Origin: Cliona cf. orientalis
Lineage: Eukaryota; Porifera; Demospongiae; Clionaida; Clionaidae
Reading direction: 5' to 3'
Length of the DNA stretch: 64,000 nt
Assembly (NCBI GenBank): GCA_963930775.1
Contig: OZ005696.1
Coordinates: forward strand, 1,612,001 to 1,676,000
Part shown: in pieces, positions 24,427 through 53,763 of the stretch
How the letters are laid out: each line of letters begins with the position of its first letter
Position numbering within the stretch: position 1 is the stretch's first letter
The notes under the pieces: generated by a model
Told to the model about the DNA's origin: nothing
Seen by the model: the letters and a program-made list of their open reading frames with translations, nothing else
The model's database searches: none
Made by a program: the position numbers and the translations under genes

Positions 24427-27400
24427 CTGGGGGGGGGGGGGGGGGGGGAGAGAGTGAGAGATTAAATATAGCTAGCATAAGGTAATGTAGGGCATTGTGG
24501 GTACCATACTTAATATAATAGAATGTATGGAAAAAATCAATTTTGAAAAACGTCCACTTTTCTGGTAAAGGTCGTCAATTGTTCCATATTATTATTGTAC
24601 ACGTTATGAGAATTCGTAAAATGCTAGATCATACATTATACTAGCTATGGTATTGTAGGGTAATGAAGGTAATGTACCTGTCCGGCATCACACACTCTGA
24701 TACCATCCAGCAGCTTTGGAAAATGTAGTGTGTTGCATTTCTCGATGATTTCATTTCCTGTTGGTCGATCGTCAGGATTCTCCTGCCAGCACCACACCAT
24801 CAGCTCACGAAGGAGAACGGGACACGGAAAATCCTTTAAAATGCGTATGGATGTGTGCATATAGATTGTAAAGCATACATAAATGTAATTTGGGATTTCT
24901 GCAGGGAAATCATTGCCATATCATCAAGTTATGGGCATACAAACAAATTTATATCCTGATTCAGGACCACAAGCAGTGAAGAAAAGGATCCTTCAAGTTA
25001 TAAGGCTATGTAGCTAATACGACTCTGTCAAGCTCACTTTTCGTTTCAGTGATGGTCTCTCTCCTTTCTCATTCGCCTGGTTTGCCTGCTGAGCATTGAG
25101 GTCGACATAGGGAACATGAAGAGTAATCAGCTCGTACATGAACATCGCAAAGGAGAAGATATCAATCTGACAGTTGTACACCTAAAAATTAATGGTAGAG
25201 CAATCAGACAAAAATGAGTAAAACTGACATAATACAATGTACATAATATATTATATCATTGAGTATAAATTATAATGGAATTGCAAGACTTAGTGTACCT
25301 CCTTTCCCTGGTATTTCAGCATTTCAGGGGCCATAAATCCTGGGGTTCCCACTAGACCCCTTGCCCCCTGCGTAGCAACAAACTGACTGATTCCATAGTC
25401 GGAGAGCTTTACTAGGACGTTGGTGGTTCCATACACTGGAATGGGATCTTGGGCATCCGGAAATTTCCATACCAGGACATTGTCACTCTTCAGGTCACGA
25501 TAGATGATTTTATTGTCATGAAGATACTGTAATGCACCGGCAACCTAATGAAACAAAGTGATAAGCATAATGAAATAGTCTATCCCAACTCTAAGCATAA
25601 TGTAAGAGTAGGTAAAGGTCGTCAGGAGAAAACGACTTGCTTGATGTATAGATTAACCCAACTAGCCACTGCTGGCAATTCATATTATACTCTAATGCTT
25701 CCTGATTACAATGATTACTATCACAATAATTATTGTACTGTACCTGAATCACTACTTGTTTGGTGACAGAGATGTGAAGGTGAGCGTGTGCTTCAGAATA
25801 GTCACGTAGCATGTCCTTGATGCTCCCGAGAGGAGCCAGCTCCAGAATCAGCCCAAGAGGTCTCATCATCACTCCGTGCAGCTGGATGATGTGAGGATGC
25901 TTGAGAGGAGAGAGGATGGAGAGTTCCTTTTTGACGCCAAAGAAGCCGTCGATGATGGAGCGACGTGTGACGTCGGCATTACGTGAGAACACAGACTGCG
26001 TGTCGGGATCAATGGGATCTTCAATGGAATGGTCTTGTTCAGCGTCTTGGAAACGCCACTCCTTGGTCAGCGCTTTGAACGCCACATCAATCTCCTCTTC
26101 ACCCTTTTAGCATGGTGCATGCAAATAATTACAACAAAATATCTAATAGTAAATTGGTGGATAAAAATTTTTTATAGATTGCTAAGTGAGGGCCTATAAT
26201 TTAATTACATGGGTTTGGCTTCAGGGGCTATGAAACAATCATCTAATTATTACAGCGGTCTTATTGCATAGGCTGCTACTAAACTGAGATACGCTTGCAA
26301 TAATATCACGAAACCGGAATTATTATTATTATTATCATTATACCTTGTCCGACGTTTTCTTCATCTTAGCCTTGTAGACAGTTGCAAAAGCTCCTTTTCC
26401 GATGCTCTCACCTCTCTGAAGCTTATCAGACTTCATTAGGATGTCGTGACCTTCAGTCATAAACATCTACAGTGAAGAAAAGGAGAAGCAATAAACATTA
26501 ATAATTATTAAATTTTTGTACAATCTTAAGGGAAGATTCCCTGTGGGTAACTTTACCGTTAAATTTTGGTAAACTTCTTAATGTTTTGACTGGATGCTCT
26601 AGTCATCCTGAGTTTACCAAACAGTTAAATCTTAGTTTCTATGCAGATAGCAACTGAGAACGATATCACTTGGATTCGTAGTTTTATTATTAATTTTGTT
26701 AGCTCTCTATTAACAAATCAGGCAACTCACAGTATCAGGAGCCATGTACGAGAGTAGAATGTCTCCGTGGTCGGGGCACTTCATGGTGTCCTGGGTGCGA
26801 GCAGTCACGATGCACTCTTGGTGCTTGAAGGAATAGCAGTACTTGCGAGAATGCTGTCTAGATGTCCTTGGACTGGTCTGTGTATAGATATGTATAATAC
26901 ATAATAATATAATATTATATGCAATATGACATTCGCTTTGTATATACATTCAAAATTTCAGAAAGTGTACAAGGTTCATGATTTGCATAACAATTACCAC
27001 GATTTGCATGACTCGAATTGATAAGCTTATATTTTACAATCAATCCCAAACTAAGGCCCATGGAGTGACCAGTCTGGCATGCATTAGGTATGACATAAGA
27101 TGCACTCACCTGCATCCTGGTGTGTGTTCTTTCTGACTTCATGTCGCCCAAGTGATCTTGCCGCGAATGTTTGTTTGATCTTGTTGCACCGAGAGAAGAT
27201 GGAACACTCGCGGTGATGCTGAAGTTTGGATCCATGCTAAACACAGCAGTAGAGGAAGCTTCAGAAGGTGGTGGGTTCTCCTGAAGAGATGCCTATAAGT
27301 TTAAGAAAAACGAAACATGTAGCTTCATTCCAACTGCAATGCATAAAACAATGATACACAAATTCATGCTACATGTAGGTGATCAATATACTACACATGG

Positions 27401-30400
27401 TAGCTCTACAGCCACAATACCAATTTCACCAACAAAGCAAACTTGTCTCTAACCACAGTGCATTCTTTAATAGTAGAACACTTTGCAGTGTACGACTGTT
27501 TCTCTCAATTAATTGGTTTCCTACATCTTGATTGTACTATATATACCTGTGCCGCATCGGCTGGTTGTTGTTCCAAATCAGCTGGCAATCCTCTTTCCAC
27601 CCTCTCTTCGGGACTCAGCAGAACAGGATTATCACTAAAAGACCTCCTGAGCTGTGCCATGTCTCGCGCAGTATTCTCAGAACAGAACGGGCAAGGAATA
27701 ACAGAAGTCCGAGGTCTCACGCCTACAAACCAGTCTTCCACCAACAGCGATATGTGGTCGAATACTTTCGACATAAGCCCAGCCCTCATGATGTCATTCT
27801 TTTCTTCATCAATGATTGGAGTCGTGGAAGCTACTGCCGCTGCCACGGATGATAGCACGGAGTTTGCCTCAGGGGATAGTTGCTGTTGCTGTTGCTGCTG
27901 CGGCTGCTTATTCCCTGACGAGTGATTGCCAGCTGCTGCTCCTGCTAGCTGACTAAGCCTGCAACAAAAGTAGTGGTAGGACGATGGTACAATTAATGTA
28001 TATTGTGTACACACAGGTAACTAGATATTAATTTTAATGATTAATCCTGAGTGAAGGGGCGGGGGGGGGGGGGGGGTGGGAATCAATCTTTCACTGATAG
28101 CAGAATGTTATAATTCAAGCTCACACAGTCATTGCTCCCCCACCCATGAGAATATAATTTTACATAACACTGTATTCTGCCATCTACATCTGCTTCACAA
28201 GATAGTTACCGTGTTTATGCTATTAGAACGCAAGCCAAAAAAAATTACAATTTTAAATTTTGCGCAATTTTCTGGTAAAGGTCGTCACTCACTCCATTAA
28301 GATACACTATGAAATATCCTAGAACGCGAATTTTCTTGCTAATTAGATCACGCGTTTTATTAGCATAAACACGGTATAGCTACGTACATGTAAAATTACA
28401 ACCCACCCTTCACTGCTCCTAGCTCTCCGGATGCTTCCTGTTGATTTTGCTGCACTAGGTTTCAAACCTCCACCATCCTTAGCTGTGTCATCGTCCTCAT
28501 GGTAAAGTACACTATCATTCACACTGGATCCATTGATCTGTTCATCAATGCTCGTCAATGTTGGTCCTGCATGGAGCCCCACAGGTCGCTGACGATTGGC
28601 TCTCTTCATTCGAAGCCGCTCGATCATCTCATCCAGCTCAGACAACTTCAATTCCTTCGCTCCGGCTCCTTTATTCGAGTGCGGCAAATATCCACTAGCA
28701 GAAGGATTCTGTGCTCCATCCAGGATGTTACGTGGTGCTTCTGGCTCAAGGATGCTTGGAATGGGGGGAGGAACATTTGGTATGGCTTGCTCGTTGACTT
28801 TAACGTAGCCTGTACTACGCCTGGCCTTCTTGCGTCTTGCCTCAGGGTACTTCAAAATTGGGTAGATGTCTGGTACACTGATGTTGATGCCAAAGATACT
28901 CAGCTCGGAGTGGTGAACCCTCCACTTCTTCTCTCCATAGATCTTGACTCCGTCACAACTCTGAGCTTTTGGGAACATTCCACCATTCAGTTCCTCCACG
29001 GAAAGAATAGTCAGATTCCCATACTGCAGGATCATTCCCGTTCTCCATTTCACCCATGTCAACTGATCTGTGTCTGCATTACAACGTTATAATCAGTAAT
29101 ATGTGACACATGCTATTATGCTATATCGACATAAATTTTTCTTACCATCCTCAGAGAGGCCACACCCCTCTCTGGCAAGCGAGATGATGGTTGGATCAGT
29201 GAGCAATCGAGATATCAATCTGGGCCAGAAACCGCTCGGAATGAAAGGTATCACATAGCAGTGACGCAATGGAGGCAGCATTTTCTGCAAGTTACACAAA
29301 ATTTAGCATGCATGAGCAAATTTGAACCTACTAAATTTCAAGCACGAGTGATCTTTGACTGTTCACTATAATATGAATTTTTTTATGAATGTCATAATTA
29401 AGGTCTTAAGAGCACGTATGGTATGAAGAATTTATGTACATGTGTGTTAAAGTGCCGTGCCACAGTTGCTCACCATCTCCTCAGGGAACATGGTCTGGGG
29501 CAGGTTTGGCTTTTCAGGACTCAGAGCAGAGGGGATGAGTAGCTCTCCATTACCCAGCTCCACGGCAACTTCAAACGTGGTCAGCAATCGAATGTACTCC
29601 TTTTTCCAGTGAATAGGGAACTCCTCATCATTGAAGATCAGAGGAAAATCAGAAACACGCATCACACCTGAGCATTCAAACAAACCAGGCATTACAAATT
29701 TTCATTATTGAAGATAATGTCCGGGTTGGTGTAGCATGATCTAAATTGCTAGTTCTAGTATGGATCCCCAACTGAGAACTCAACCACTGAAAACCAGGCA
29801 AGCGAACAGAGGTGTTGCGTAATGATTGGTGTGTGTCTGTACATTGGATAACTCAGAACTACAGCTACACGTAGCTACCTAGAGTTGGTAGACTCTATAA
29901 GTAGGGGATGGCACGGACACTCCCACATACAAATACCCAAATATCTCAAAACAGGCAATTTTTGTGAACATTTTATACAATGTAGCTTTGGCCAATATGA
30001 AGCAGAAAGGTTAATTCACACACTTAATATCTTTAATAATTTTGGCGTTACGCTGAGCTACATTTAGCTAGCTGCTACATTCCGAGGGAACAAGAAATGA
30101 AAAGATTTATAAATTTACCATCTCTGACTAGAGGATTGATTTCTCTGACGGTCACGATGTGGGCCAGCATATCACAGAGCCACTGAGGATCCACGAAGTA
30201 CAGGTCGCTCAGCAGGGGGTCTTCATAGTGCAGCATCGTGCCATTGTCGTGAAGGAATCGAACAGCCTGCTCCAGTTCTCTGTCGAGAGCGTTGCGACTG
30301 ATGAGTGTCCGAGGATCAGCAAACACTGCCTCCCTGAATTGACAAAGCAGTGCATGAGCAATAATATTATTATGATATAATATGACACATAGAAATGATA

Positions 30401-33400
30401 AAGAATTGACGAGTCTACCACTATCAGTACATGCATAATACACTCGGATATGAATCATTGTTGTTATATAACGAATTATTATGAGATTTGAGTAAAACTG
30501 TAACACTTAACTATGTATTTTGCCCGTTTGAGGACTGCCTCGGGATTGGGTACAGCAGTGGATTCACAAGTATCATAGTACAAGGAGTAGCTAGTGCATA
30601 CATTGTTGACTACAGTCACCTTAGATCTTTGTAGGTGAGAACAGGAGGCTTGCCCTGCAATCTCATGACGAGAGAGATGTTTCTCACTGTATCCTCCAGC
30701 TGAAGGTAGGAGGCAGGAACCAACTGGTCCATCAGTAGGCGGTGCTCCGGGATTCGACCACACCCAACACCACGCCCAGCAACGATGCTTTCCTTCACTT
30801 GGCTGGCAATGTCAAAGATCTTATCACGTAGGTTCTTGATATGGTAGCCACTTTTGCAGCTAACAACAATGCTATGCATCACCTACATTATGCAAACAAC
30901 ATAGCATAAATGCATTATGATTATACTGTTCTCATTCTATACGTATAATATTATGTATGTAGTTTTAGACTAAGTTTAATGATTGCTCACTTGGGGAAAC
31001 CCTTCTTTTCTGTCGTCCAAAGTGCCATATGTCTTGTTGATGTAATTCTTTGCTTGCTCAAGCTCTCGGCGTAGTTTGCTGTTGAGTCTGTCCTCATGGG
31101 TTCCAACAATCACAACAGGAGAATGGGGAGCTCTTGCCTGTGTATAAAAAAAATAATAATTATGTGTGTACGTGTATGTGATACTATGAAGATATGTGAA
31201 CAGGGGGGAAGAGAGAGAGAGAGTCTCCCATCTCGATCCAATACACATATAGGGCTGCCATAATCTTTTGAAAATAAATCCTAAGGAATATACCCCAAAT
31301 CCTGAGATATCACAGAAAACACTGTACCTTATGGGATTAGAAGGCTTTAAAATCCTAATATTCCTAATTTGCATATGCTAATAAAGCAAAATTGATGCTA
31401 AAAATCCTAATATAAGGATAAAATCCTAATCTTTGGCAGCATTACACATAATCATACCTGAATATTGAGTAGCCATGGTTTAATCTCCTGAGCTCCCTTC
31501 ATTCCATGAGTGACATTCCAGACCACGAGATAGAGCGATCTTCGCGAGAGAAAGCACTGGTGTGTGGCATAGTACTCCTCTTGGCCACCAAAATCCCACG
31601 TCATGAATGTGATGCTTTTCAGAGCTGTCTGAGAATGCTGCACTCGCTTGTAGTAGGTCCAGTCACTCACCACGATTCCAACGGTTGAGATGTTGGGACG
31701 TTCACCTCTGCTGTACTTACTGCGCTCCATGATTCTATAGGAAGAGTTAACGACAACAGTAAAATTTCATTTACCGTAAATCTGGAAATTTTCATTGTAA
31801 AAATATTTTCGTAGTCGATGACGGCTACGAAAATTAATCTTACAAAAATTAGCTAACGCTAATGCGGTAAGGGGTCGTTCCTACGAAAAATTTTTTACAT
31901 GAAAATTTGTCATACGAAAGTTTCTTTACACGAAAATTTCCAGATCTACGGTATATAATATTATGACTGTGATAAAGTATTACCTTTGTAGAGCCCAGTT
32001 TTCTTGTACTCCTCTCTGTCCTTTCTCAGAGATCTTTTGCAAGAGTGTAGTCTTTCCCCTTGCAGCGTAGCCAACAAGCATTAACTTCATTCGGTGATAG
32101 GGGCGAGCCCTATAGATAATTAGAAATGAATCATCATTACATAATCCCACACAATTACAATAACATTATAATTAGCAAACCTTTGAAGCAAAGACCATAA
32201 AAATCCAATAATATCCTTCGTCTTGCCTCGCTCAATGATATTGTGTGGAGGACAGATGAGCTTGAGGCCAGTGAGCGGGAACTCCCACAGCTTATACAGC
32301 TTGCCCATTTCTGCAGGGAGGCTGATGATGGCATTGTTGGACAGATCGAGGGTGTTGAGCTCCGTCATCTCACAAACACTCTCGGGGACCTTCTCGAGCA
32401 GGTTGTGCGAGAGAACAAGTCGCGTGAGAAGAGGACATACAAGCTTCGACTTATTCGGTCGCTTTCCGTGGTGTGATCGAGAATTTGAGCCAGATGCTGT
32501 TGCAGCTGACCCAACTGTGGCGTTATTGTCTCCCTGATTATTGCCACTTCTAGCATTTCTGCTGTGTCGCACCCTAGTCTGAGGCCCAAAGAAATTGGCA
32601 GTTTCCAGCAAGCAGTGACTCATCTCCAAGACGGTCAAATTGAGAAGGTTAAGGTGAGCCCTGTGTGCACAGAAGGACACCTCGTCATTGTGAATGGTGA
32701 ACCCAGATTCATGCAGGACAGCTGGGTTAGTGCAGGGGAGTGGCTTGGCCATCATTTGTGGGCAGTCGAGGCTTTCGAGATGATTGTGGGACATGTTAAG
32801 GTGCTTCAAGGTGGATGGAAACGATCGAGGAAAGCAGATGGTATTGACTTCATTGTGCTCAAGTTCCAAGCGAATCAACTTTGGGCAAAGGCAGGCAAGG
32901 TTCTCAGGAATCTCGGAAATGTGGTTATTGGAGAGCTTCAAGAGTGCGAGGCCTTCGTATTCCTCATCCTGGGAGTCAGAGCTCTGCCACTCGATCGGTA
33001 AAAGGCCATTGGAGATATTCAAGCGATCCTGAAGTTTTGAAACGTGCGTCAGTTCGATGGCTTCATCTCCCTCACCCTTTTGCCCAGCATCGTTATCGGC
33101 CTCGATGGATGCCGTGAGATACTTGGGGACAGGTGTCTTCATGACATCATGCTCGGGGGACCTGGCTCCCTCTTTGTTTGGTGACTTTGAGCTCTAATAA
33201 TACAAATACAAAAAGTATTGTAAACTTATTCCAGTGCAAATAAAATATTAGCTGTGCTGTATAGGAGCATCATATGAATTGAACAATAAGCTAGCCTTAA
33301 AGTTTTCTTATAAGGACACTATGAATGATATTAATGATCATATAAAATCTTATTCCTGCCCACAGCTATTAAAATTATTATTCATGCAATTTTTACCTCC

Positions 33401-36400
33401 ATTGATTTAGGAGAAGCACATGTTGGAATGACATTACATTCGTTCATCACACGAGGCCAGTTGGTTGGGATGGCCTCAATCTCATTACAGTTACAGATGA
33501 AGGTGTGCAGCTTGGGAGCTGTCCACATAGAGAACGGTAGCTTCCTCAGGTGATTATGTGAGACATCCAAGTAGGAGAGCTTTGGAATACAAAAGATGAA
33601 ATCTGGCAGCAACACAAGATCATTCTTGTCCAGCAAGATTCTGTTGAGGGAGAAGCACGGCCAAGCGTAGTTGTCTTCAGACTGAATATACACCTTCTGG
33701 ATTTCGGGAAGGCTCTCCAATTCATTGTTGGAGACGATCAGTTGTTGAAGCTTTGGCAGGTAGAAGACCTCTTGTGGTAATGTCTTCAAGTGGTTGTTAC
33801 TCAGGTTGAAGCACGTCACAAACTCCATCACTCTCGAACTATCGATGTTCTGAGAGCAGAGAAACCGTGCTCGATGCAGAGCTCCAGAGATCCAATCGGG
33901 GTGCAGTTCTGTCAGTTGTAAGCTGGACCACTTTATCATGGCCATCTTGTAGCGTCGATCCTTCGCATTCTTTGGCGGTTTGTAGTTGTCATCATGCTTG
34001 ATCAAGCTACCAAGAAGAGGCACCATAAGCTCGTGATGATGGCGAGACGGTACACAGATACGAATGGCGTCATAGTGCTTATCTTCTGCCCCATACTCCA
34101 GAAGCAGGCTCAGAATTTGTGGATTCTTGTTGGTAGTTGCTTCAGAGAGTGGGGTACGACTGATGGCTACTTTATCCAGCTGAGACGGATCGAGTCGTGT
34201 GTTGGGGTTAGCTCCTCTTCTCAGTAGTAGCTGAACTGCGTCGGTACGGTTGAGGTAGACGGCGAGGTGGAGAGCGGTGTAGTTGCATTGGTTAGCATCG
34301 GCAGACAGTCTCAGTTCACGACTGTGCTTCAAGAGATAGTTCAAGATGCCGGTGTCGTTCACAGCCACTGCGAGATGAATAGCTGTATGACCGGACATCG
34401 TAGCCGATCCAAACTTTGCCACGCCATGGCTCATGCTGTCCTCCAGATTATTGTGGTGCTCGTGGCTGCTACTTGCCATACGCACATGGCGGTTGTGTGC
34501 CCATGTAACCTGCTGCTGGGCTAGGGCCTTGACAATGTCGAGCTGTCTGTGAGCCACAGCGATGTGAAGAGCATTGTAGCCTTCGCTCGTAAGCCTCAGA
34601 GCAATATCTGGTACTTTATCAACCAGTTGCTGGACTAAACCAAGCCTTCCATACCTGTGTGTGTGTGGGGGGGGGGGGGGGTATGATTCAGTAAACTGTT
34701 ATGAATGATGATGGTAAACTGTACTCCCTTTCTATTTGTAACTGAATATCAATTCCAGTATCCTGTACATACTACAAGAAACCCTTTGTAGGGAAATACC
34801 ACAACCACCACACTCCTACTGCACCCCCTGCATTATGTACTACCATCCACTCACCACATACCAATGACAAGCATGGCTTGTGACCATGCATGCAGCTAGT
34901 ATGTCGTTGAATAATAATTATTGTGGCATGCATGCATGTCACAACATCCACCATACTTGGTCATGTGCATTGTCACACATTTTAAGGGTCACTAGTATTA
35001 CTGATACACAAGGCTGCAAGGTCATGGCAAGAAGAGCTACATTTGTGGGCCTGGATCCGTTCAAGCTAAGCAGAGTGCACGTAACTGACAGAGAACTAGG
35101 CCATGGAGCCTACGCTGTTGTTATGGAAGTGGAGTACATGGGACTCAAGTGTGCTGGCAAGAAGATCCATGAACTGTTACTCAAGCAGGGAGAGATGAGC
35201 TACAGTATCCATCATTTTGAAGATGAGTGTAAAATACTCAGTCAAGTTCGCCACCCCAACATTGTGCAGTTTCTTGGAGTTTACTACCAGCAGGGAATGA
35301 ACGTTCCAATGCTAGTGATGGAGTTTCTTCCCACAAATCTGAGTTCTGAGATCAAGCTTAAAGGCATCCTCCCAATAGAGCTCAACTATTCAATCCTTCA
35401 CGACGTGGCTCTTGGCTTGCAGTACCTCCACATGAAGCATCCTCCCATCATTCACCGTGATCTCTCCGCCAACAATATTCTCCTCACGGTCAACATGAAA
35501 GCAAAGATCTCAGACTTGGGAATGGCCAGGATGATCGACATGAGCCCTCTACAAGTCAGTAAAATGACAGAAACCCCAGGGACTCCAGCCTACATGCCAC
35601 CAGAAGTAATGGTCGCCAACCCTGTATACGACACAAGTGTAGACCAATTCTCTTATGGCATCTTGATGATACACACACTGAGTGGCAAGTGGCCAGAGCC
35701 ACAGTGTTGCCAGATCAGAATGGAGGCTGGTAAAATGATCCCCGTCTCCGAAGCTGGTCGCCGGGAGGAGTACCTCAGTGACATTGGGCACAAGCACCCA
35801 CTGATGGAGCTGATTTTGAAATGCATCAGTAATGACCCATCAAGTCGAGCCAAGGCAACTGAGATTGTCGAGAAACTAGCAGATATGGTTTTTAGATTTC
35901 CAGACCCATTTATCACCAGGCTAAATTCACTCAGTGCACAGGAAACTGTCAGACAAATGAACGTTCGAAGGAGAACTGAATCGAGCCTGGGTACGAGGCT
36001 AACTCCAGTCAGTGCACAACAGGTATTTCAACCCTATAATTCAACGCAGATTACACTGTCAACTATAATAGTATTATACGCATTTCTTGTGTTCATTATC
36101 CAGCATCGATTGTCTGTAGCACAAGAAAAGTGGTTCTTCAACATCATTGACACAGGTAAAGCAGAGAGAAAGTGCAAGAAAGATGGAGACTTTTTGGTAC
36201 GAATTGACGGACACAATCAATTCCACATCACATGCCGATGGAATGGAGAAATGAAACACATTGCTATTGATGTAAGTAGCCAAGTTTCAAGGCTAGTATT
36301 TACATAATTGAGTATACAATGATACTGTACCTCTCTTTCTACTTTAGGATGCAATGCTGTCAAGATATCCAACCCTTAGAGATTTCATCAACTACCACAT

Positions 36401-39400
36401 TGAACACGACATTCCTCTTCATGGTCACCCAATCAGACTCATATTTCCAGTCAACAAACTCAACGATGAGTGGGCCTTAGATCATTCCCAGGTTTCAATG
36501 AAAACAAAATTGTACTCAGGTGTATATGGGAACGTACTTGAAGCAACGATTAAGAAAACAGGAGAGAGAGTCATTGCAAAGTCCTACCATCGCTCTACAA
36601 GAAGCATGGAGGCTGCCAACCAGTTCCACTTAGAGATAACCCTACTCAAACAGTACAACCACAAGAATATAGTGAGGTAAGGTATAAGTTGTGATCATAG
36701 TCTCTGCATGGGTGTGGACTATACTATCATTATTAGAGTAATACTGCATTATTTACGTATCCTATGCACCCACAATGTGATATTTTAGCCTAGGCTGGGA
36801 CACTAAATGAACTATTATGCCTACCATTAATTTTGCATGGCTACTTTTAGTTCTTAACAGACATGACATGCATGCACGGTTAAAGCATAGCCTGCATATT
36901 ATATCTATGTTGGCTGAGATGGATTCCTCTGCTGGGAAGCTTTGCCCTAATTCAGGGGGTTTCTATATTAATTCCTAGACATTACATACATGCCATCCAT
37001 TAGTGTTCTCCCCAGCATACACAAGGCATATCGGCCCAACAAATCTTCCGTACAGAATTTTCTAATAGGGAGATTCCAAAAGCTTTGGTGTGGCCACAGT
37101 CTCCACCTAAAGCATGCCCTATATACTGTCGTGCCTTGACATGGCTTGAATTTTGCTTTGGGAGAACACTGTCCATGATAGCACTCTATTTTCAACATAG
37201 TACAAGATAGTCCATACAAACAGGATGTGGGTCATGTATGCAGTGGTGAATTTATCCATGCACAGGATGATAGGATTCTGTGCAGACTGTGACCCGATGT
37301 ACATTATCTTGGAGCATGCACCCGGTGGACTCTTACTTGACTCCTTGAAATCTAGACAAGCTAATCACTCCAAGAAACAATTGTGCACTATGTGTATCGA
37401 CATTTGCAGGGTGAGTGAACACAGGGAATGGTACTATTTTTTTGGCCAAATTACATAGCTGTACAGTGTAAAAATTGAAATTGTTTCTGCATGGCCATGC
37501 AAACCTGGGCACTAGTTTGACTTTGAACGTCACAACATAACGATAATAATAATTATGCTTCCACAGGCTATGGAGTATATTCACTCAAAGCAGCGTGTTC
37601 TCTGCAACCTGACTGCCAGAAGCTGTCTAATTGGGAGAATGAATACCATCAAGCTCTTCAAATTTGGTTTAAGCTGTCAGATGCAGAGCAGTATGGAATA
37701 TATTCGAGTTGAAACGACAACTGTTATGCCACTAAAATGGATGGCTCCGGAGGTACGTTGTTAGCGGCTGTGCCTTTCTATAATTCAGTAGGTATTGGGA
37801 TGATTTTTCCAGCTCAGAAGAGCCTGGGTGCATGTGGGCTGAACGATTGTAACTGAAATCTAAGTACATTATTTGCAAATAAAATTATAGCCAAGAAGAA
37901 TTCTAAATCAGTGTACTAGTAATCCCTTCATAGATTTATCTGACGTACATGTATATTATGTAGGTATTCAACTTTCGAAAGTACATGTTCAAAAGTGATG
38001 TCTGGAGTTATGGTGTTCTCATGTGGGAAATATTCACGGGCGGCAAGCTACCCTATCCAGGAATGACCAATGAGACAGCCCGTTCAAAGGTACAATCAGG
38101 TCATAGCACAGACAACACAGTGAATAATACCCCTTTTGATTGCTTCATTAACTTTTTACTATCATTAGATAAATTTGCTTTATTGAGGTTAACTCCCCTA
38201 GAAAGTGAGCATGTACTGTTGATATTGGCTGTATAAATAGGACTTCTATTATTGGGAATGCCCTCTAGTTACCAATTTTCATGTTCACTTGTTATACACA
38301 CATATATAGGTTGAGATTGGCTACCACATGGATCCTCCCGCTGTCAGTGACTGTCCAAAAGAGATAAGCAGAATTATGCTGAGCTGTTGGAAGTACGAGC
38401 CAGAAAGAAGACAAGACTTTGCAACACTAGCGATCAAACTACAAGACGCATACAAGAACCTCTGAGCTACACTTTAGTTCGTTGTTGTCATATTCGTCAT
38501 GTGAAGATTCAGACCACATGCAGTATCAATGTTTATAGCATTGGGATATCCTTTGAGACATACACCCAAGCCATTTTTGCTATAGTAGTCTGTTATGCTG
38601 CATGGGAGGGATCCACTTGTTCCATCCACTGGCAGAAACATTACAGTTTTTAGATACAGAGAAAGCTAGAGGATAATCACATACAGTATAATTATAGAGA
38701 GGCTATAGCTATTATTGCACAACTTCAGGACTTAGTCTACATGTAATATGTCTATAGGAGATAATAACTGTTACAACTGTGTCAGGATATACATATAGCT
38801 TGATCATCTCCATAAGTTTTGCTAGTCTTGTATACTTATTAACACTAACACCTAGTATCTATTTTGGATACACACGAGAGTTGATTGTAAACTACAATAG
38901 CCAAGTTGTAGCTTCACTCAAAGCCGTCTAGTAAGCAAAAGAAATAATCATGCACTTATAATCGCACAACCGTTGACTCAGAGCCTTTTAGTCAACTATG
39001 GGGCATAGTTCAAGTATATTGTTTATCAGAGCTAACTTAGATATGTGTATGACTTGGAGCTATAGAGAGCCATCAACAAAAGCTAAAAACATACTCACTA
39101 TATAGATATGTTTTGAGTTGGGAGAAGGCATAAGCATATAGTACATATATGGTCAATTTTATAGTATCGACTAGTGCCAGTGCAGCTAAAAAGCTAGCTA
39201 GTTGAAAATGGCAGCAATGTTAACTAGACAAGACTCCTTCACTGGCTTTGATCCGTACAAATTGATGGGAGTAAAAGTGACCGACAACATCATAGGGCAC
39301 GGCTCCTACGCCACGGTTCTCGAATTGGAGTACATGGGACTAAAGTGTGCCGGTAAGAAGATTCATGATGTTCTACTCAAACAAGATTCAACTTATATTG

Positions 39401-42400
39401 CCAGTCGATTTGGACAAGAGTGTCGACTGCTAGCGCAAATACGGCACCCCAACATTGTCCAGTTCTTAGGAGTATTCTTCACAGAAGGAGAGGAGGTACC
39501 CATTCTAGTAATGGAGTATTTGCCCACCAACCTCAAGGCTTGCATAGAAGTCAAGGGTGTCCTTCCACAGTCAACGAGCTACTCTATACTCCACGACATA
39601 GCTCTGGCCTTGTGCTATCTCCACAGCCAAGAGCCACCCATCATCCATCGAGATCTCTCTGCCAACAATATCCTACTCACTGCTAACATGAAGGCTAAGA
39701 TATCTGATCTAGGAATGGCTAGAATCGTCCAATTGAACCCCCTACAAGTCAGCTACATGACAGAGACCCCAGGTACGCCCATCTACATGCCACCAGAGGT
39801 GATGATAGCCAACCCTTCCTACGACACGAGTATTGACGAGTTCTCTTATGGTGTTCTGATAGTTCACGTGCTGACTGGAAAGTGGCCGGAGCCGCAGTGT
39901 AGCCAGATTCGCATGGAAGGGGGGAAGATGATACCCGTCTCGGAAGCCGAAAGACGAAGGATATTCCTTCAAGAGATCGGGAGTGAACATCCTCTCATGG
40001 ATCTGATTTTGAGGTGCATTGACAATGACCCCAAGCAGAGAGCCAATGCCAACGAAATTATGCAAATCATCACAAGGATAATTGCAGCAAAGCAGGTAAG
40101 CCAACATTTGCAGCGAAAACTATTTGTAGATGACTTAAAAATGTGCCTTCCTTGTGTATATTAGCTACTCATACTTAAGTAGACTATATGAATGCAATGC
40201 AGACTAAGTGATAGTGAATTTTCATTGTTAGGGCAAGCTACAAAATTAAAACACGAACACAAATTTGTGATCTATGACTAATCCTTATAATTATCACACA
40301 GAAGAATGTTTCACCGACAGCTCCACTTGCACCTTCACCTTATGAAATAGCACAAGTGAGAAACGTATCAATAGATCTACCTCACCCAGTTGACGTTGCA
40401 AAGAAAAAAACACCACTAAAGAAACCAATACCAGCAAAGAGAAAATCAAAAGAGCTGGTAAACAATAATATTATTATAACAGTTTCTCTCTGGTATGTTT
40501 CACATAATATATAGGTATACAATACTGTATATGTGTGTCTGAGCAGATAGGCATTTGGGGAGGGGGGGGTTCCCCCATGAATGGGTTTGGCTATAGGAGA
40601 TAAAACTCATTTTGTTTGAATTTTTATGTGACTCAGCCTTCAGTACCTGCTATGGTTGAGCTAGAGGACTGGTACTTTGGCAACATTGAGCGAGCTCTGG
40701 CAATCAGCAAGTGTAAGAAAGATGGTGATTTCGTTGTGCGGTTTAACGATATCAAACAGAGATACATAATCACAAGTCAATGGAAGGGCCAATGCTCACA
40801 CTATACACTGGATGTGAGTTTCAAAAAAAAGCTACTAGAATTTCTTTTTTGTTTTTCCATGTTGATTACTTGTTTACAATAGAAAGATGACTCTGGGAAG
40901 TACAGTATCATTGGATCCAGCCGCAGCTTCAAATCCGTTCAAGAGCTGATCACCTTTTATACATCGACGGGTGAATCCCTCAACAATAGCGAGGGTGATC
41001 AACTCCTACAGCATGTGAGCAAAAAGGACAAATGGAACGTCAAGTATACAGAGATTGAAGTGCAGATGAGGATTGGTACCAGTGCATTTGGGGACATGTG
41101 TATAGGATCGTATGCACAGCGAAAGGTGTCCATTAAGACGTATGCGGGAGACAAGGCAAGGTCTATCAATCAGTTTCTCCTGGAGGTGGAAGTATTGAAG
41201 GAATACTCACACCCAAATGTAGCAAGGTGAGCAGAAGTACGTGCATAGTTAGAGCACGAGAGAGAGAGAGAGAGAGAGAGAGAGTAAGGAAAGAGAGGGC
41301 GAGAGTAAGGAGAGAGAGGGAGAGTGCGTTAGAAGAATAATCACTCTATTGCTTGTCACTACTGCCTTGTAGGTTGGTTGCTGCGTGTCTTGAACCAAAT
41401 CCAAACTTCCTCAATAATCCGGTCTACCTGATCATGGAGCACGCTCCAGGCGGAGTCTTCAGGCACTACCTCCAAGAAAAAGAGTTTCTAATCACAACCA
41501 ATCAGATATGCAGAATGTGTGCTGACGCCTGCAAAGTACATAACTATACACTTGTATACATGTAGATTGTTATTTGGGAGGAACCCTGTAATTAATATTC
41601 TTAATAGGGCTTGGAGTATATTCATTCAATGAAGCGTGCCCACTGTGACGTGGCAACCAGGAGTTGTCTGGTGGGGTACGGCAAGATTGTCAAGATTGCT
41701 AACCTTGGAATGAGCACAGATTTCTCTAACAATTCCTTCAACATTCAACCTACGCCAAAGAATGCCCTCTTGCCAGTTCGTTGGAGCCCACCAGAGGTAT
41801 ACAGGTCATAACCATAAATACCACACTTTATAGTTTGCACACAGTGAGTACTGATCACTTACATGTACATTCAGTAAGGCTATGCATTACATGATGTCAC
41901 TAGCACAGCATAATTAAAGTACACTACATACACCTGCACTATAGAATGGTGGCATGGGGTCTGTGGTGCTTTGGTACAGTTTGGCTGCTACCAGCACTGA
42001 CATGAGCGGATGTGAAGGCCAAAATAATTTATTTTGGCTTAGCTTGAACTGTATGTACATGTAGGTATTGAATTTGGAGCGGCACATTCACAGTGACATA
42101 TGGAGCTTTGGTGTCTTCCTGTGGGAGGCATTCTCGTTTGGTAGAGAGCCCTACCCAGACATGGACGAGTACAATGTACTGACCAAAGTAAGCAAATTGA
42201 CGAATGGAGTAAGCTATAAATATACACGTACCATAATTACGCTAGAAATATTCATATATCAACATTTTCATTCACCTGCGTACCATAATAATAATTATTA
42301 AAATTTTGCTGTTTAAATTAAACAATTTTTACGTAACAAATTTCGTCATTTTACGCAAGTCTAGATAATTAAGCATTGTTCTGAGGCTGTATGTACACGT

Positions 42401-45400
42401 ACATACATGCATATGTGCAGGTAAAGGAGGGATACCATATGGATCCCCCCGCCATGTGTCACCCGGAGATCAGCAAGATCATGCTAGAGTGCTGGAAGTT
42501 CGATCCCAAGCAGAGGCCAAGCTTCACGGCATTGATCAAGAGACTAGAAACAGCTCAGCATCACATTTAACGGTATATACAAAATTAAATGGTACGGTAG
42601 TCATATTATTATTATAATAGTACATGTTCTGTATATATACCAAATTATTATTTTTAGTGTAGTGTAATTATTCAACTTTCTTATCTGCTCACTTTGTGAT
42701 TATTGTGTATACACTAAAACCATGTGATAATCTGACTTTTACTCACATTTTCAAACAACCTAAACACTATACATATACTCGTGGGTAAACTTATAATTAT
42801 TATAATATTAAACAACGGTTATACTGACACCCCCTAGCACAATTAAACGTTGACAACTTGCTTTTAAAAATTTTACACAACACGTTCTTCCCAACAGATA
42901 TCATAAAAGCAAAGTAAGAAATTACATGCAATACACAAGCTGAAAATAAGTTACCGTATAGCCGGAAAATTTGGCGGGGAATTAAATTTGGCAGTTTGGC
43001 GGTCTGTATTACAACCACCAGATTAAAATCTGCCAAAATTTCCTACTCGCATATATATGTATGGCGATCCTGTACCGAACCGCCAAATTTAAATCCGCCA
43101 ATATTCTTGCAATAGTGATTTTGGGCTCAACCGCCAAATTTAATTCCCGCCAATATTTCCGGCTATACGGTATTATGTCTTGTAACTCTTAAGGCTAAGC
43201 TTATACACTGACTGACCTGCATGCAGCGTGGAGCAAGCTGGCGTCATGGAGAGTGTGAGGAATGTCCTTGGCCAGTCGGCTCAGCACTTTGACCAACTCA
43301 GGGTTATTGATGAGCACACATTGCCTGTGAGGATGCAAGCATGGAATAATAATATTGAAACAATTATTAAAGGGGCTGAATGGGCTGAATGGTCTGAACC
43401 AGAACTGGGAGATTCCCAGAAATTCAAGAGTAGAGCAATAACTATTCTTGTTTATTTTGGTCACAGATCAAAGGCTTTAACTAACATCCCTTTCCATGTT
43501 CCATTGATCACGTGAATGCTAATTTAGCAGTGCAGTGCTGTCCTAAAGAAAGCCATGCGGAATTAAAAATTTCTATCTCTAGAGACAAGAGCACATTAGA
43601 GCATACATGTACGCAATGGTAGCATGGTAGTCTATTTTTATTATTAGGTTGATATGCATGCACATGTAGATACACGAGTGATTTAGTAGCATGAGAGATT
43701 GATTGTGTGTAAACACTTGGTGCTTGTCAGAAGCTGTGCATTAATAACAACCTCCCTGCATGGGAAAAATCAATCCAATACACACAATACTGTCCCTTTC
43801 ACCTCTTTCACACTATATATAAGTACACAGAATACTATATACATGTAGGCTGGCAAGGGCAAACACACAGATGTTGTAATCGTGACTAACAGAGATTGTC
43901 AACTCTTTCCTTGACTAGTTTACACAGGTGTGCCAGCATGAACGGGCGTGCAATGGCTGCAGTGTTCTCCCCCAAGAGTATTTCATGATGAAATAACATG
44001 ACCCGTGTCCACATAAAAAAGATGGGCATCCCCTCCCTTCCCACGATAATCAAAGAGGCCACGTTTGAACTAGTTCCTAGGATGTATACCACCTATCCTA
44101 TGCTCCCTGCCATCAGGGCTTAGTAGCTCATTTGGTAAGAGTGTCGGACTAGAATTCAGAAGGTCCTGGGTTCAAATCCAGCCTTATTTCTGACATTTTT
44201 TTCTCTTTCTTCACTTCTCAATCGCCTGTTTTGACACCTGCCTTACCAGGCTTATGGTAATTAGCCTTTAATTATCAATCAAAGTTTGGCTTGCAAGACT
44301 TGAGTATGCTGGGGAAAACACCGAAAGATACTTTCAAATTACCAGTAGCTAGAACTATAGTTCCTGTACCTATACAAAAGTACTACTAGAGCACTATATA
44401 AGTACCTGTACATAAGGCTCTCAGACTGAGAGAGCTGCTGACCCTTTGCCACAGTCAGGGGGAAGAGAGTGTTGAAGAGCTTCCAGTGGTCCAGAGTCTG
44501 AATATTGTTGGCCACCAAGTTACGCTCAACCTCTGCATGTGTCAAATGTAGTGTGTGAGAGTGATTATTTACCGTAGTGTCCCGGGTAAGCGCCCATGTA
44601 CTGCATTTCAAGAGGTCAATGTAGCAGCTTCTATACAAACGTATGGAATTTAAATCCCGGGTAAGCGCCCATGCAGGCCAAAAATAATAGCAAGTTATGT
44701 TTAAGCACCCATGGGCGCTTACTCGGAATACTACGGTAATACTATAAGAGTAGAAATATTATTGCAAGTGTCAGTGTACCCAGTTTCAATGGGTAAATGT
44801 TTGCAGCTTCCATGCATACAAATGTATGCAATTTATGTCATGGGTAAGCGCCCAAGTGGGCCAAAGTACCCAATAATGACTAAGTACCCATGGATACTAC
44901 TGTACTACATGATCATAACAATCACCAGCATATTAGAGAGGCCTTAAAACTGATTCCTATAACCATCCCTTTATCGGCAATATAGTGTCTCTGGGCTAGA
45001 GAAAATCTGTACTAACTTCAGAATTACATCAAACTTATATTCTGAGGAACATATTCAACATTTGGCCATTGGAAGCAGTGTATCATCATCACTTTTTGCA
45101 CAATGCAGACATATGGCGTGTGGTCCACCACCACACGCATGTACATGTGCATGTGCATGTATACTATGTACATGTACATGTACTACACTATAAAAGTACA
45201 TACATGATTGTCCATGTACATGCATGCATACATAAACTGGTACTATGCATACAAGTATTATCACAACACTCCCTCCAAATATAGACGTTGATAGAAGAAA
45301 AAACAATGTGTTGCATCAATAATTTATGTAGAAGAGCATATGACTACCAGCAACCTGGCTGGCCACATGCACAGGTGGAGTCATGTGACCCATTCAGTGT

Positions 45401-49536: not shown

Positions 49537-50529
49537 TCATTGAACAAAAATCTCAATTAGTTGCACTGGTGTGTCCTCATCTTCTAGAAAGAATCTTCCA
49601 CTGACAATACTCATTATGCGTATCTCAATGTCATCTGTAGTAGTCTGGTTTAGCTGCTTACAGAACCATGGAGGGTTGTTGAATTCACAGCAGGAACTGG
49701 AGCCAGCACAGCCCTGGCCATCCCATAGTGGATTGTTGGTGATGAAGTTAATATTATCATTTCTCGTTCCAATTTCACAAAAGTAGTCCTCATTGACAAA
49801 GGGGGGTGTAGCATTTGTTGGAATTATACAAGGGCAATAATCTTGTCCTTCTCGTGCTGCAGCAAATGTCCAAATATGATTTCGTGGGTCCCCAAATGTA
49901 ATCGAAATGCCATCAGCATATGCATCATCAAGTGTTCGTTGATTTTGATTAATGTAGCCAAGAAATCCTTCTGGAGTTCCAAATTGATATGCAACGATTC
50001 GTCCACATACCCTGGAATAAGGAATTCCATAGGAGGTGTAGTTGACTGAGTTGATGTTTGTATCCATTTGCCTTCGACATGTGCGAATTGGTAACTGGAC
50101 CTCTCTCCAACCATCTGGGCACTGTTCACTTGGATCAGACATGTTGAGGTAGGCAATACGCATCCACTTTCCATCACTTTCACCACAGCAACGATTCTCA
50201 TTCAAAGAGCAATAGATCAGCTGAGGTTCATTGGCAACATTCAACCAGTAGTAGCCAGATGGGTGGCCTTGATAAATATCTTCACATGAGCTTGCTGGAA
50301 AACTTTTGTATAGTCCGTAGAGCTGCGGAAGAATGCTGGTGTTGAAAATTCCTTCAACTTCATTTGCTAGTTGCGAATGGAGAGCGCTGCTAAGAGTACA
50401 TCCTCCATTATTGTCTACTCTCTTCATCTCAATGCTAGCTGGCCTAACGGGAGGTTGTGCTGCAACGACACTGCAGCACACCACTACCATAACCGTAGCG
50501 TATTGTACTAGGTTGCTTGAGTTTTTCAT
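49537..50529 (-). CDS. Secreted cysteine-rich fibrinogen-like protein 1
   Basis: A single exon of 330 residues from ATG 50529. The N-terminus has a hydrophobic signal peptide (YATVMVVVCCSVVAA). The body opens with a fibrinogen-type motif SSCEDIYQGHPSGYYWL, then CCGESDGKWMRIAYLNM, QCPDGWREV, VCGRIVAYQ, DGISITFGDPRNHIWTFA, DYCPCI, WDGQGC, CCEFNNPPWFCKQL and TTDDIEIRIMS. About 20 Cys and several N-glycosylation sites (NMS, NYT, NAT, NQT) fit an extracellular protein. This motif order is what I recall from unnamed protein families in sponges and cnidarians, and a lectin-like or matrix role is only inferred. It has no membrane span. It is the first of a minus-strand array and its 5' flank carries the 2.1-kb insertion. 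Confidence 0.88.
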   Translation of the reverse strand: MKNSSNLVQYATVMVVVCCSVVAAQPPVRPASIEMKRVDNNGGCTLSSALHSQLANEVEGIFNTSILPQLYGLYKSFPASSCEDIYQGHPSGYYWLNVANEPQLIYCSLNENRCCGESDGKWMRIAYLNMSDPSEQCPDGWREVQLPIRTCRRQMDTNINSVNYTSYGIPYSRVCGRIVAYQFGTPEGFLGYINQNQRTLDDAYADGISITFGDPRNHIWTFAAAREGQDYCPCIIPTNATPPFVNEDYFCEIGTRNDNINFITNNPLWDGQGCAGSSSCCEFNNPPWFCKQLNQTTTDDIEIRIMSIVSGRFFLEDEDTPVQLIEIFVQ

Positions 50530-50669
50530 ATTGCACAAAAGAGATGTTTACAATTAGCTGAAGGTTAGCAGCAAAAGTGAAGAGGAATGAACTTCCTTAC
50601 TTGCACTTACTAGTCATCCAACAACGACAGTTCTCATATATAGTCCAGATACATGCACTGTTTACCGTA

Positions 50670-52790
50670 CACTGTTAAAAAAAGTGTGTTGTGGTAACAC
50701 ACTTTTGGTGTGTTGGTACAGGTACTTAAATTTAACACGCCAAATGTGTGTCAGTCAACACCCTCTGTTTGGTGTGCTCTACAACACTGAAATAGTGTGT
50801 TGCACAGCACTTATTTAGTGTGTTCAGTAGGGATTGTGGTGTGCTTCTGTAACATGCAACAATGTGTATTAAATTTCATTTTCAATATTAAAAAAGGATC
50901 CAATAACAATAATATTATTATTACAACAATTATAAATAATTCGTTCAAAAGACATGACTGTAATACTATTACTAGTGCTTTTACTGTTCAGAAGCTTCCG
51001 TTGGTGTTGAATTATACACCCCAACTTTGGAGAAATAACGATCTTGCTGCTGCTGCTGGTGCTGTTATTTCATCTAAATACATGTAGACAAACAGAAAAA
51101 AAACAAAACATTGACTCAACCAGCTGCATTAGCATGACATTATATGGGTGTCCATGATTATTCATAGACATACATAATTAAGGATAATGGAAATAGACGG
51201 GGATACAGGGACAGATTAAGCAGTAGTCTCGTGCCCAGCCCCTTTTCACGCACGCAGAGAGAAGGGGTCTGGACAAATGTGTATAATAGGGCTCGTGTCA
51301 TCCGTGCAACATACAGTGCGCTCCATTCAGATGCACGGATCAAGTCACATGACTGTGCGGGCATGAATGGTATGCAAATTAATGACTATGCGCGTGCACG
51401 TTTGTACACGATAGAACCCTTGTGGAATGTTAATTTATTAGTGTTTCTTATTCACGCACACCAGAAATATCATGTATTCCTCGGCAACACGGGTCCTATA
51501 CACATTTGTCCAGACCCCTTCTCTCCGTGTGCGTGAAAGAGGGCTTGGCACGAGACTAATTAACCAGTAGGAATAGAGATAGGCATAAAAGGGAAAGATC
51601 CATGCATGAGAGAGAGGTGAAACTCACCAGATTAACATGTGTTTGGTTGTATGATGCAACAGGAGGCGAAGTTGTAAGCAGCAGGTGGCAGCTGTATCAG
51701 GTATAAATGAGAGAAAATCCTTTATGCACTAGACGAGAGGGAAGACCCTCAACAAGAGGAGGAAGAGAGACAGAGAAGCAGAGAGGGAGGGAGGGAGGGA
51801 GAGAGATGTTGGGTATGGAACTTACCAGATTGACATGTTTGGTAGTAGCTATGGCACTCCAGAATTACAAGCAGCAGGTGGCAGCTGTACCATACAATGA
51901 GAGAAAAATCACCTTATGCACTTTATATCATGACAGAAGGAAAGAGAGTCAGTGGCCTCAGTAAGAGAGGAGAGAGAGAGAGAAATCAATAAAACTTGCT
52001 TACCTAGCATAATGTAACATCTTAGCTTGATAACATCAGCAGCTACATCATTTATGTGCCGGGGAGCAGCCTGGGAGCGAAACTTTTAAGTTGATAAATA
52101 TTATGGCCCTAAAGTAGAGAAGGGTGAGAGAGCATTTTTCATTCAGGTATTGAAACGATTGCTCCATGCTTCTTATGGCCATTAATCTGGGCAATAACGG
52201 ATTGTAAGCATATTTTAGTCTAGAATACCACCCCCTGCATGTAAGTAAACTCTAAAAGGGAGGCCAGTCCAGAGACAATGACCGAAAAAGATGGCAAGTT
52301 TAGCATGCAACTAGCTACAGCTTCCTAAAAGACTGGTGGTAGCTACTTATTTGGAGTAGCAGAGGGAATAAACCACTTATGCTGCACATAAATATTATCT
52401 TAACCACTTACTAAACTCACTTATCCAGTTAGAAATCATCATTTCATGGTCAGAGAGCTGCCCAAAGATTCAAACTGGAGAGCAGCTGCCACTGAGAGCT
52501 AATCAATATGCGCATGCGTAATTAACCCAATGACGTAATGATCGTGGTAGCCCCGCCCCCATAGCCATACCAACACCCCTGTGAGTGTATCACAACACAC
52601 ATACAGGTGTGCAATTTTGCACACCTACTATTAAAGTGTGTCAGATAGCACACTTCCTATGTACTGAGTGAACATGTGTGTCCAGCAACACACTTCATGT
52701 GTCAGTGGAACACAAGTGTGTTATACAACACACTAGTGAAATCTGACCACAAAATTTAGTGTGTTGAACAACACACCATTTTTAACAGTG
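50670..52790. mobile_element. 2121-bp TIR element with TA target duplication
   Basis: The left end CACTGTTAAAAAAAGTGTGT and the right end (inverted) CACTGTTAAAAATGGTGTGT form the terminal repeat. TA flanks at 50668-50669 and 52791-52792 are a target duplication: paralogous flanks at 54881-54895 and near 61324-61338 read TTACCGTAGTGTAAC without the insert. Both ends carry many subterminal GTGTGTT/AACACAC words. No transposase is visible. The interior has a foldback (51224-51558) and a duplicated unit of about 200 bp (about 51620 and 51822). Confidence 0.85.
51224..51558. repeat. Inverted repeat with arms of about 61 nt, nested in the TIR element
   Basis: Arms 51224-51284 (TAGTCTCGTGCCCAGCCCC...) and 51497-51558 (...GGGCTTGGCACGAGACTA) are reverse complements with few mismatches. 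They share GAGAGAAGGGGTCTGGACAA inside. This may be an independent MITE that landed in the larger element. Confidence 0.75.
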
Positions 52791-52792
52791 TA

Positions 52793-53763
52793 GTGTAACA
52801 TGCATGCAGTCTTGCCGTCTTATGTATTTGATTTTTAGGGCGGACACTACCTGGAAAATTAGATAATGCACTTAAGTACATTTCTCTGTAGCCATTAATT
52901 TGTAGTATAATTAAACACTAATGTGTGTGATAGTGCATTCATGCTTGTGATGTTTTTCATTCCATAATAATAAGACTCAGACTGCTGACTATCTATACAC
53001 TTTCTATACACATTATTATCATCATCCTCTACGGTGCATGCATATATGCATAGTTACCCGGAGCTCCATGCATGAGCACCATTGATTGTATATTGAGCTG
53101 ACTTTGCTCTGTTGTCAACCTCGTTTAGTGTCAGCATCCCGGTAGAATCTTAGCTAATATAATATAGTATACCTTTACACGTAGGAAGTATTCACATACT
53201 ATGTTGATGAATATGCACAGATTTAGTGTGATGATCGTAGTACATGTATATGCATCACTACAAAAGTTAATAGCAAGTGCATAATGATAGTGAATATATG
53301 TATATATATACAAGACTTTATCACTGTTGAGATCATTGAACAAAAATCTCAATTAGCTCAACGGGTGTATCCTCTTCCTCAAGGAAAATGGAATCAGATG
53401 CACTACTCATTATGCGTATCTCAATATAAATATTGTACATGAAATTTCTAGCACAAAATTTTGCGAACAAAATTAGCACGAACTGTTAATGTTTCCCCCA
53501 CTTGCAAAACTTGATTTTCTGTGGTAATGCATTTGTATGTATAATATTATTTATGTTACTGTGGTGACTATGGTCAGGTATTGTGTAGCGTTATAATGGA
53601 TGATGCTGCATTCAGTGTGAACGATATTTTGCAATAGCAGTTCAAGTACAAAAATTAGTTGTATGAGAAAGAAATGCGCACATTTGATGATGGCGACATT
53701 ATTATGACAATATTCATGTGCATGTATAAAAATATATAGTATTCTTGTTCGATCTCATCATGT
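52793..53763. other. Duplicated intergenic block with a gene 3' fragment
   Basis: 52793-53763 is repeated almost unchanged at 54889-55859 (offset 2096 bp), and its first 630 bp again at about 61332-61968. At about 53427 the sequence jumps from a 3' gene fragment into the type-a 3' flank, a recombination junction shared by both long copies. Confidence 0.8.
53333..53427 (-). pseudogene. 3' fragment of a cysteine-rich family gene
   Basis: It encodes only the last 30 or so residues (IEIRIMS ... FLEEEDTPVELIEIFVQ, stop at 53333-53335), identical to the tail of the fragment at 61874. It is cut at 53427, where unrelated flank begins. Confidence 0.75.

Follow-up and report, generated by a model that had tools for sequence, protein, structure and literature searches.

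Janus kinases (JAKs) carry a FERM domain, an SH2 domain, a pseudokinase and a tyrosine kinase in one chain, both kinase domains belonging to the tyrosine kinase group. The Dictyostelium proteins Shk1-5 are tyrosine kinase-like (TKL) kinases with an SH2 domain, which in Shk1 is required for plasma membrane localization (PMC1420674). In Fes, the SH2 domain packs on the kinase N lobe and sets helix alpha-C, and an SH2 ligand, once bound, has been inferred to stabilize this arrangement (PMC2572732). A Sycon cDNA with the Fes/Fer domain organization is cited in PMC5793068, and the paper on the holozoan tyrosine kinome names a sponge-specific Src family, Src-Aque1, with no TKL fusion apparent in its accessible sections. 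Here, two tandem genes, A and B, are described in a 64,000-nucleotide stretch of the sponge Cliona cf. orientalis (assembly GCA_963930775.1, contig OZ005696.1, positions 1,612,001 to 1,676,000 of the forward strand), hereafter the window, to which the coordinates of A and B refer. Both genes encode a TKL kinase, then an SH2 domain, then a degenerate tyrosine-kinase fold. We consider it probable that each of them yields one fused protein, in which a Fes/Fer-derived SH2-pseudokinase unit stands behind the TKL kinase, the SH2 domain reading phosphotyrosine and the TKL domain being the sole output.

Gene A (35024-38465, + strand) was rebuilt exon by exon from the window sequence as 7 exons encoding 702 residues, and gene B (39208-42570, + strand) as 8 exons encoding 729 residues. 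All introns are of the GT-AG type, their phases are all compatible and the reading frames contain no internal stop. These models reproduce the in-phase splicing to both lengths, the junctions 36022/36104 and 40095/40302 and the end of B that had been proposed in an earlier note on this DNA. In A, exon 1 (35024..36022) carries the TKL kinase domain and a linker, as seen from the gene model, Pfam and motifs. Because the following intron 1 (36023..36103), taken as an intron here, counts 81 bases, a multiple of three, and is free of stops, a single open frame (34868-36307) runs from the TKL domain into the beginning of the SH2. Exon 2 (36104..36271) encodes the first half of the SH2 with its Arg (GDFLVR) and His (KHIAI), and exon 3 (36348..36676) the remainder of this shortened SH2 and the kinase N lobe. 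The pseudokinase continues through exon 4 (37266..37410), exon 5 (37567..37752), whose catalytic loop reads VLCNLTARS for HRDLAARN and which has KFG for DFG, exon 6 (37964..38089) and exon 7 (38310..38465), which brings its C-terminal end and the stop.

The same succession was found in B. Exon 1 (39208..40095) holds the TKL kinase domain on the same three grounds, exon 2 (40302..40457) a linker without Pfam match, exon 3 (40637..40813) the first half of the SH2 with its Arg (GDFVVR) and His (SHYTL), and exon 4 (40883..41226) the rest of the SH2 together with the kinase N lobe. Exons 5 (41373..41535), 6 (41608..41796), 7 (42065..42187) and 8 (42421..42570) encode the pseudokinase up to its C-terminal end and the stop, exon 6 providing a catalytic loop that reads AHCDVATRS for HRDLAARN, and NLG for DFG. 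The introns on the TKL-SH2 side are short and in phase in both genes, with 81 bases in A, and 206 and 179 bases in B. Just 3' of B, at about 42968-43171, an inverted repeat around GTATAGCCGG...AATTAAATTTGGC was seen by eye and resembles a small transposon remnant. Further on lies a weak tRNA match (44123-44182, + strand; 29.6 bits for a gathering score of 29).

Pfam detected two kinase stretches per protein (PF07714; expectation values, E, of 3.4e-110 and 7.8e-103) and, together with motif reading, gave the domain order that had been claimed earlier, with an SH2 bearing its Arg between an active-looking TKL kinase and a degenerate kinase. Indeed, the glycine loop, the Lys, the alpha-C Glu and the MPPE motif of the TKL domain are in place in both proteins. 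Ser/Thr-type kinases usually have an HRDxK lysine, and the type of P+1 loop is a class marker. By these motif rules, the Ser/Thr class that the TKL domains had been assigned to is only half supported, since their P+1 loop is of this kind but their catalytic loop reads HRDLSANN, with Ser where the HRDxK Lys would stand. The second kinase retains its Lys and alpha-C Glu in both proteins (A exon 3, B exon 4), and its glycine loop is altered in both. A has lost the catalytic-loop Asp as well as the DFG Asp. B has lost the DFG Asp and the catalytic-loop Asn and retains the catalytic-loop Asp (HCD).

The comparison was extended to five Fes-type fused proteins, namely A, B, two from other loci of the genome (C4 and C1b) and P0152 from the sponge Dysidea avara. 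For the motif comparison, further SH2-kinase rows were sought at 7 loci, 4 of which gave one (L008 being C10a, discussed below, again). The Arg (bB5) and His (bD4) that form the SH2 phosphotyrosine pocket are retained in all five, and the DFG Asp is gone in four. The second kinase shows HAD, NLG and a Lys to Arg replacement in C1b, and HRD...RS with GFG (DFG Asp to Gly) in P0152. The exception is the sister gene C4, where all compared catalytic residues are intact. The TKL and pseudokinase parts also differ in their rate of change. For the TKL, SH2, pseudokinase and linker, the proportions of non-synonymous and synonymous differences between A and B (pN/pS) were 0.22/0.71, 0.44/0.77, 0.40/0.70 and 0.58/0.80, respectively, figures that are rough, since the synonymous sites are near or at saturation. 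The two pseudokinases are only 36% identical, yet none of their 263 aligned codons is a stop and pN lies well below pS. From these codon comparisons, the pseudokinase evolves faster than the TKL domain while remaining constrained.

By alignment and phylogeny, the second half of A and B is a degenerate Fes/Fer SH2-kinase unit whose F-BAR end has been replaced by a TKL kinase. The description of this half as tyrosine-kinase-like in the earlier note was correct as to its degeneracy but too general as to its descent. Alignment of A with the human Fes SH2-kinase structure of the Protein Data Bank (PDB) covered residues 7-365 of 369 with 198.8 bits, and B reached 213.3 bits. Human Fes was the top SH2-plus-kinase PDB match for both; a doubled EGFR kinase entry sums to 219.9 against A, which corresponds to two copies of a kinase-only match at 109 bits. 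In two SH2-kinase trees, the Fes-type fused proteins fell inside the Fes/Fer branch with a support of 100/100, and in the first of them the five proteins clustered together (85/90). Besides, the exon phase run 0, 0, 2, 0, 0, 0 of the SH2-kinase unit is common to A, B, C4 and C1b, the phase of the first C1b exon resting on the acceptor that was chosen.

Although both tandem genes are present as the earlier note had stated, they are not alone, as relatives were found at C4, at two places on C1, in Dysidea avara and, with a Src-type unit, at C10, C2 and C6. The Fes-type SH2 exon gave six strong matches in the genome (C4, C19, B, A and two on C1) and two weak ones (E 3e-5 and 8e-5). Five of the six strong ones sit behind a same-strand TKL exon, which is broken in the two on C1. 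Both of these C1 loci are B-like (L044, L045 and L050 lie on C1). In one, the TKL frame is broken and a kinase was not found behind the SH2; in the other, the TKL is interrupted by a stop and an insert. From its sequence, the sixth strong match, C19, resembles an ordinary Fes/Fer gene, and no TKL match was found in the 9.7 kb before its SH2 exon. The Fes-type SH2 exons of C19 and C4 are 98% identical and the DNA likeness between the two loci starts mid-exon, so that the Fes part of C4 seems to be a 5'-truncated copy of C19. The ratio of non-synonymous to synonymous rates (dN/dS) between the two SH2-kinase parts was 0.09 over 377 codons, indicating that both stayed under constraint.

The TKL domain of A and B is homologous to an expanded TKL family of this genome, that of A having at least 135 further matches at 45-73% identity, B included and partial matches counted. 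In a TKL tree, to which 28 of 29 loci contributed a row (L036 did not), A and B group with the A-like proteins P0020 and P0021 (95/93). A second TKL tree with 22 rows, 8 of the 28 TKL loci among them, was used for approximately unbiased (AU) tests of groups that had been chosen with the first tree already in view. A common group of A, B, P0020 and C1a was not rejected (p-AU 0.17), replacing C1a by C4 was rejected (p-AU 0.016), and replacing it by the Dysidea protein gave a p-AU of 0.0535, a borderline value for one origin with Dysidea. From these trees, A, B and C1 may go back to one fusion event and C4 looks like a separate one. C4 as the simple ancestor of A and B was rejected, in view of the joint TKL group test and of a Fes part copied from C19 starting mid-exon. 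Another exon of the same TKL family lies in the window at 16950-18473 (+) and is followed by a long frame (19027-21231, +) with Tectonin/Hyd_WA propeller matches, possibly a TKL-tectonin fusion.

TKL exons are also joined to a second kind of SH2-tyrosine-kinase unit. The order TKL, SH3, SH2 and tyrosine kinase occurs on the same strand at C10, C2 and C6, the SH3 having been found at C10 and C6 but not at C2. The relatives at C10 and C6 have TKL and SH3 in one unspliced frame, and an in-phase join from this frame to the SH2-kinase exon fits in C10a and C6. The SH2-kinase part of C10a is 51% identical to human Src (395 bits), and the SH2 Arg is lost in C2a, C2b and C6. Taken together, the much-copied single-exon TKL could be a plug-in head of sponges that was repeatedly and independently joined to SH2-tyrosine-kinase modules, of the Fes type in A/B/C1, in C4 and perhaps in Dysidea, and of the Src type in C10, C6 and C2. 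This would define a class of TKL kinases gated by phosphotyrosine, in which some members have two intact kinases of different kinds (C4, C10a, C6) and others a pseudokinase regulator (A, B), a generalization to which we give even chances. At the C6 locus L042 (C6:5770500-5778500, - strand), the TKL, SH3 and SH2 are followed by four tyrosine kinase matches in a row, with a stop between two long frames. Elsewhere in the genome (G000), an open frame of 2925 residues (C17:2316550-2325288, - strand) contains an SH2 match and 10 tandem tyrosine kinase matches, and arrays of tyrosine kinase matches, some with stops, occur at C5:2.2-2.6 Mb, C9:1.56-1.62 Mb, C11:8.47-8.78 Mb and C15:6.68-7.06 Mb.

A protein search returned P0152, 'tyrosine-protein kinase Fer-like isoform X2 [Dysidea avara]', an 837-residue protein with a TKL domain, an SH2 (463-537) and a kinase (579-825). 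Queried with its second half, A gave 99 matches, among which P0139, P0152, P0212 and P0215 were examined fully; P0020-P0022, also examined, came from another search. The second half of B gave 18, an SH2 being listed only for P0001, together with C2 and SH3 domains and with no trace of the A/B layout. P0019 has a TKL domain, a coiled coil (by eye) and a degenerate kinase, with no SH2 match. The predicted fold of P0152 was confident in the SH2-kinase region and unusable in the TKL part, probably an effect of an alignment that paired the TKL domain with F-BAR helices. Its best structural matches were human Fes structures, with a root-mean-square deviation (rmsd) of 8.1-9.3 over both domains.

Alternatively, the TKL and SH2-kinase parts could be transcribed as separate messages from neighbouring units that are never joined. 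Most TKL matches of the genome are without a nearby SH2 place, the C4 TKL exon resembles copies with no SH2 match nearby, and intron 1 of B holds one polyadenylation-like hexamer, all of which would suit such units. We nevertheless regard this arrangement as very improbable, as the TKL-SH2 border of A is crossed by an open frame, the introns on this side are short and in phase, and no AATAAA or ATTAAA hexamer was found in intron 1 of A. Moreover, a same-strand TKL match lies within 5 kb upstream at 8 of at least 103 SH2 places, where 0.16 would be expected at random, a figure that assumes random scatter without clustering (the SH2 and TKL lists are lower bounds and the SH2 of A is outside the 103). 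An opposite-strand TKL match lies within the same distance upstream at none of these places, and the three places with a TKL match downstream also have one upstream. Likewise, one annotated Dysidea protein carries both halves, and the C10 and C6 relatives read from TKL into SH3 without splicing. Two unrelated adjacent genes at each locus were rejected on the open frame, the short in-phase introns, the strand bias, the hexamer scan and the unspliced TKL-SH3 relatives. Intron 1 of A was also considered as a coding segment, which, if retained, would add 27 residues with a hydrophobic run and give a membrane-bound TKL-SH2 isoform. This stretch is open in three relatives, P0020-P0022, in which it lies between counterparts of exons 1 and 2 of A. 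However, it varies in length and in sequence, with 22% identity in P0020 and 45% in P0021 against 77% and 89% for exon 2, the near-identical P0022 having 96% and 95%. The search itself favoured open versions, because shorter proteins fell below its length limit, and after a retained intron 1 the frame of A is terminated by intron 2. The membrane isoform is thus extremely improbable and was rejected on the divergence of the stretch in P0020 and P0021.

Two further explanations accept the fusion and concern the role of its last domain. The so-called pseudokinase might still bind ATP or phosphorylate by an unusual route, which would make each protein a two-activity enzyme. The retained Lys and alpha-C Glu, the catalytic-loop Asp of B and the intact residues of the sister C4 speak for it; the missing catalytic-loop and DFG Asp of A, the missing DFG Asp and catalytic-loop Asn of B and the altered glycine loops make it unlikely. 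Conversely, the tyrosine-kinase part might be decaying baggage of the fusion with no function of its own. The C1 copies are indeed decaying, the pseudokinase changes faster than the TKL domain, and among unfused SH2-kinase loci with a readable motif L007 is degenerate, unlike the intact L001, L002 and L006, so that degenerate motifs are not specific to fusions. Such decay is quite unlikely in A and B given their 263 open codons and the low pN, and the Dysidea protein has likewise lost the DFG Asp and kept the SH2 pocket.

As the Lys and Glu are retained and the SH2 pocket is intact, the second half of A and B is most simply interpreted as an SH2 and a pseudokinase braced into one phosphotyrosine-reading unit. 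In the history that we favour, the F-BAR end of a Fes/Fer gene copy would have been lost and the SH2-kinase exons of this copy would have landed behind a single-exon TKL, presumably being joined at the phase-0 intron before the SH2 exon. In A, B and C1b, catalytic residues of the tyrosine kinase would then have disappeared, with the phosphotyrosine pocket of the SH2 retained. The SH2 would bind a phosphotyrosine site, and the pseudokinase could pack on it like the Fes kinase N lobe and hold or relay its state. With the TKL domain as the only catalytic output, tyrosine phosphorylation might steer it through recruitment and release from restraint, its substrates being putatively those of a Ser/Thr-type kinase.

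Several observations weigh against this interpretation. Between the stop of A and the start of B (38466-39207), neither AATAAA nor ATTAAA was found, leaving the 3' end of the A message unmarked, and single polyadenylation-like hexamers lie inside intron 5 of A and introns 1, 6 and 7 of B. The Pfam SH2 score is 43.3 bits in B and 20.9 bits in A, just under the cut-off of 21 and borderline by Pfam alone, and past its His the SH2 of A falls short of that of Fes by 6 residues and of that of B by 9. The TKL-to-SH2 linkers of A and B, 46 and 63 residues long, are 23% identical, which makes a fixed TKL-SH2 interface doubtful. The salt-bridge residues E469, E472 and R609 of the human Fes interface are K, R and T in A and L, S and E in B; they are unconserved in C4 and Dysidea too, while two of the three are present in the Fer of insects and scorpion. 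With an rmsd of 8.8 to Fes, the fold of P0152, a protein known from its database record alone, does not show the Fes packing. When C19 was added to 16 of the 22 earlier rows of the SH2-kinase tree, C4 and C19 paired (96/95) and the Dysidea protein left the fused group. Upstream of C19 lie two collinear weak matches to the insect Fer F-BAR end (E 0.003 and 0.01), and an FCH family search of the genome returned four places, none on C19 and none on C8. As for the other fusions, the join of C4 to its TKL was read from splice sites and phases only, and its TKL exon resembles neighbours without SH2; a direct join in C2b is out of phase and would need an extra exon, and in C2a no donor fitted the search pattern for a TKL join. 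The saturated synonymous sites and the choice of tested TKL groups, both mentioned above, count on the same side.

If A and B are indeed fused proteins gated by phosphotyrosine, they would provide a direct wire from phosphotyrosine reading to a kinase of another group within a single protein of an animal whose lineage lies near the animal root, where phosphotyrosine signalling expanded. Since a canonical-looking C19, a fused C4 with an intact tyrosine kinase and the degenerate fused A, B and C1b occur in one genome, the path from kinase to pseudokinase could be tested on close relatives. What is new in this analysis is the Fes/Fer origin of the second half, the TKL head from an expanded family, the Src-type cousins and the Dysidea avara parallel. 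Elsewhere in the window, the region 25597-34698 (-) contains ankyrin and leucine-rich repeats together with part of a kinase, possibly an LRRK/Roco-like gene. Five related-looking tandem frames (by eye) of 284-352 residues occupy 49540-63894 (-), two of which were scanned and gave no Pfam match.

The layout TKL, SH2 and tyrosine kinase was not found described in the open-licence full-text literature searched, in which an earlier mention could be missed, in agreement with the earlier note, which knew of no such family. This includes the accessible portions of PMC8662651, PMC4758236, PMC12716839, PMC2572732, PMC5793068, PMC1420674, PMC4053784 and PMC12909245. Like JAKs, A and B have an SH2, a pseudokinase and a kinase per chain, but both the order and the origin of the kinases differ. 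JAK was rejected as their identity on the order TKL-SH2-pseudokinase and on the absence of any FERM match by Pfam, which bears out the distinction from JAKs drawn earlier. The succession of a TKL kinase and an SH2, as in the Dictyostelium SHK proteins, is present in A and B, and we know of no SHK protein with a Fes-type kinase after the SH2. The Src-type loci C10, C2 and C6 resemble A and B in having the TKL exon first, with the SH2 and tyrosine kinase after it on the same strand, but their SH2-kinase unit is of the Src and not of the Fes kind. P0152 shares with A and B the order TKL, SH2 and Fes-type kinase and an altered DFG (GFG in P0152), although its TKL domain is only 35-36% identical to those of B and A and its Fer-like label does not convey the layout. 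Finally, A and B were rejected as members of Fes/Fer proper, having no F-BAR and a degenerate kinase; the first 440 residues of five Fer proteins gave no match in the window at E 0.05. They differ from the F-BAR, SH2 and tyrosine kinase plan of Fes/Fer by a TKL kinase in place of the F-BAR and by lost catalytic residues, and share with Fes/Fer an SH2-kinase part that is homologous nearly end to end, a position in the same branch and the Arg and His of the SH2.

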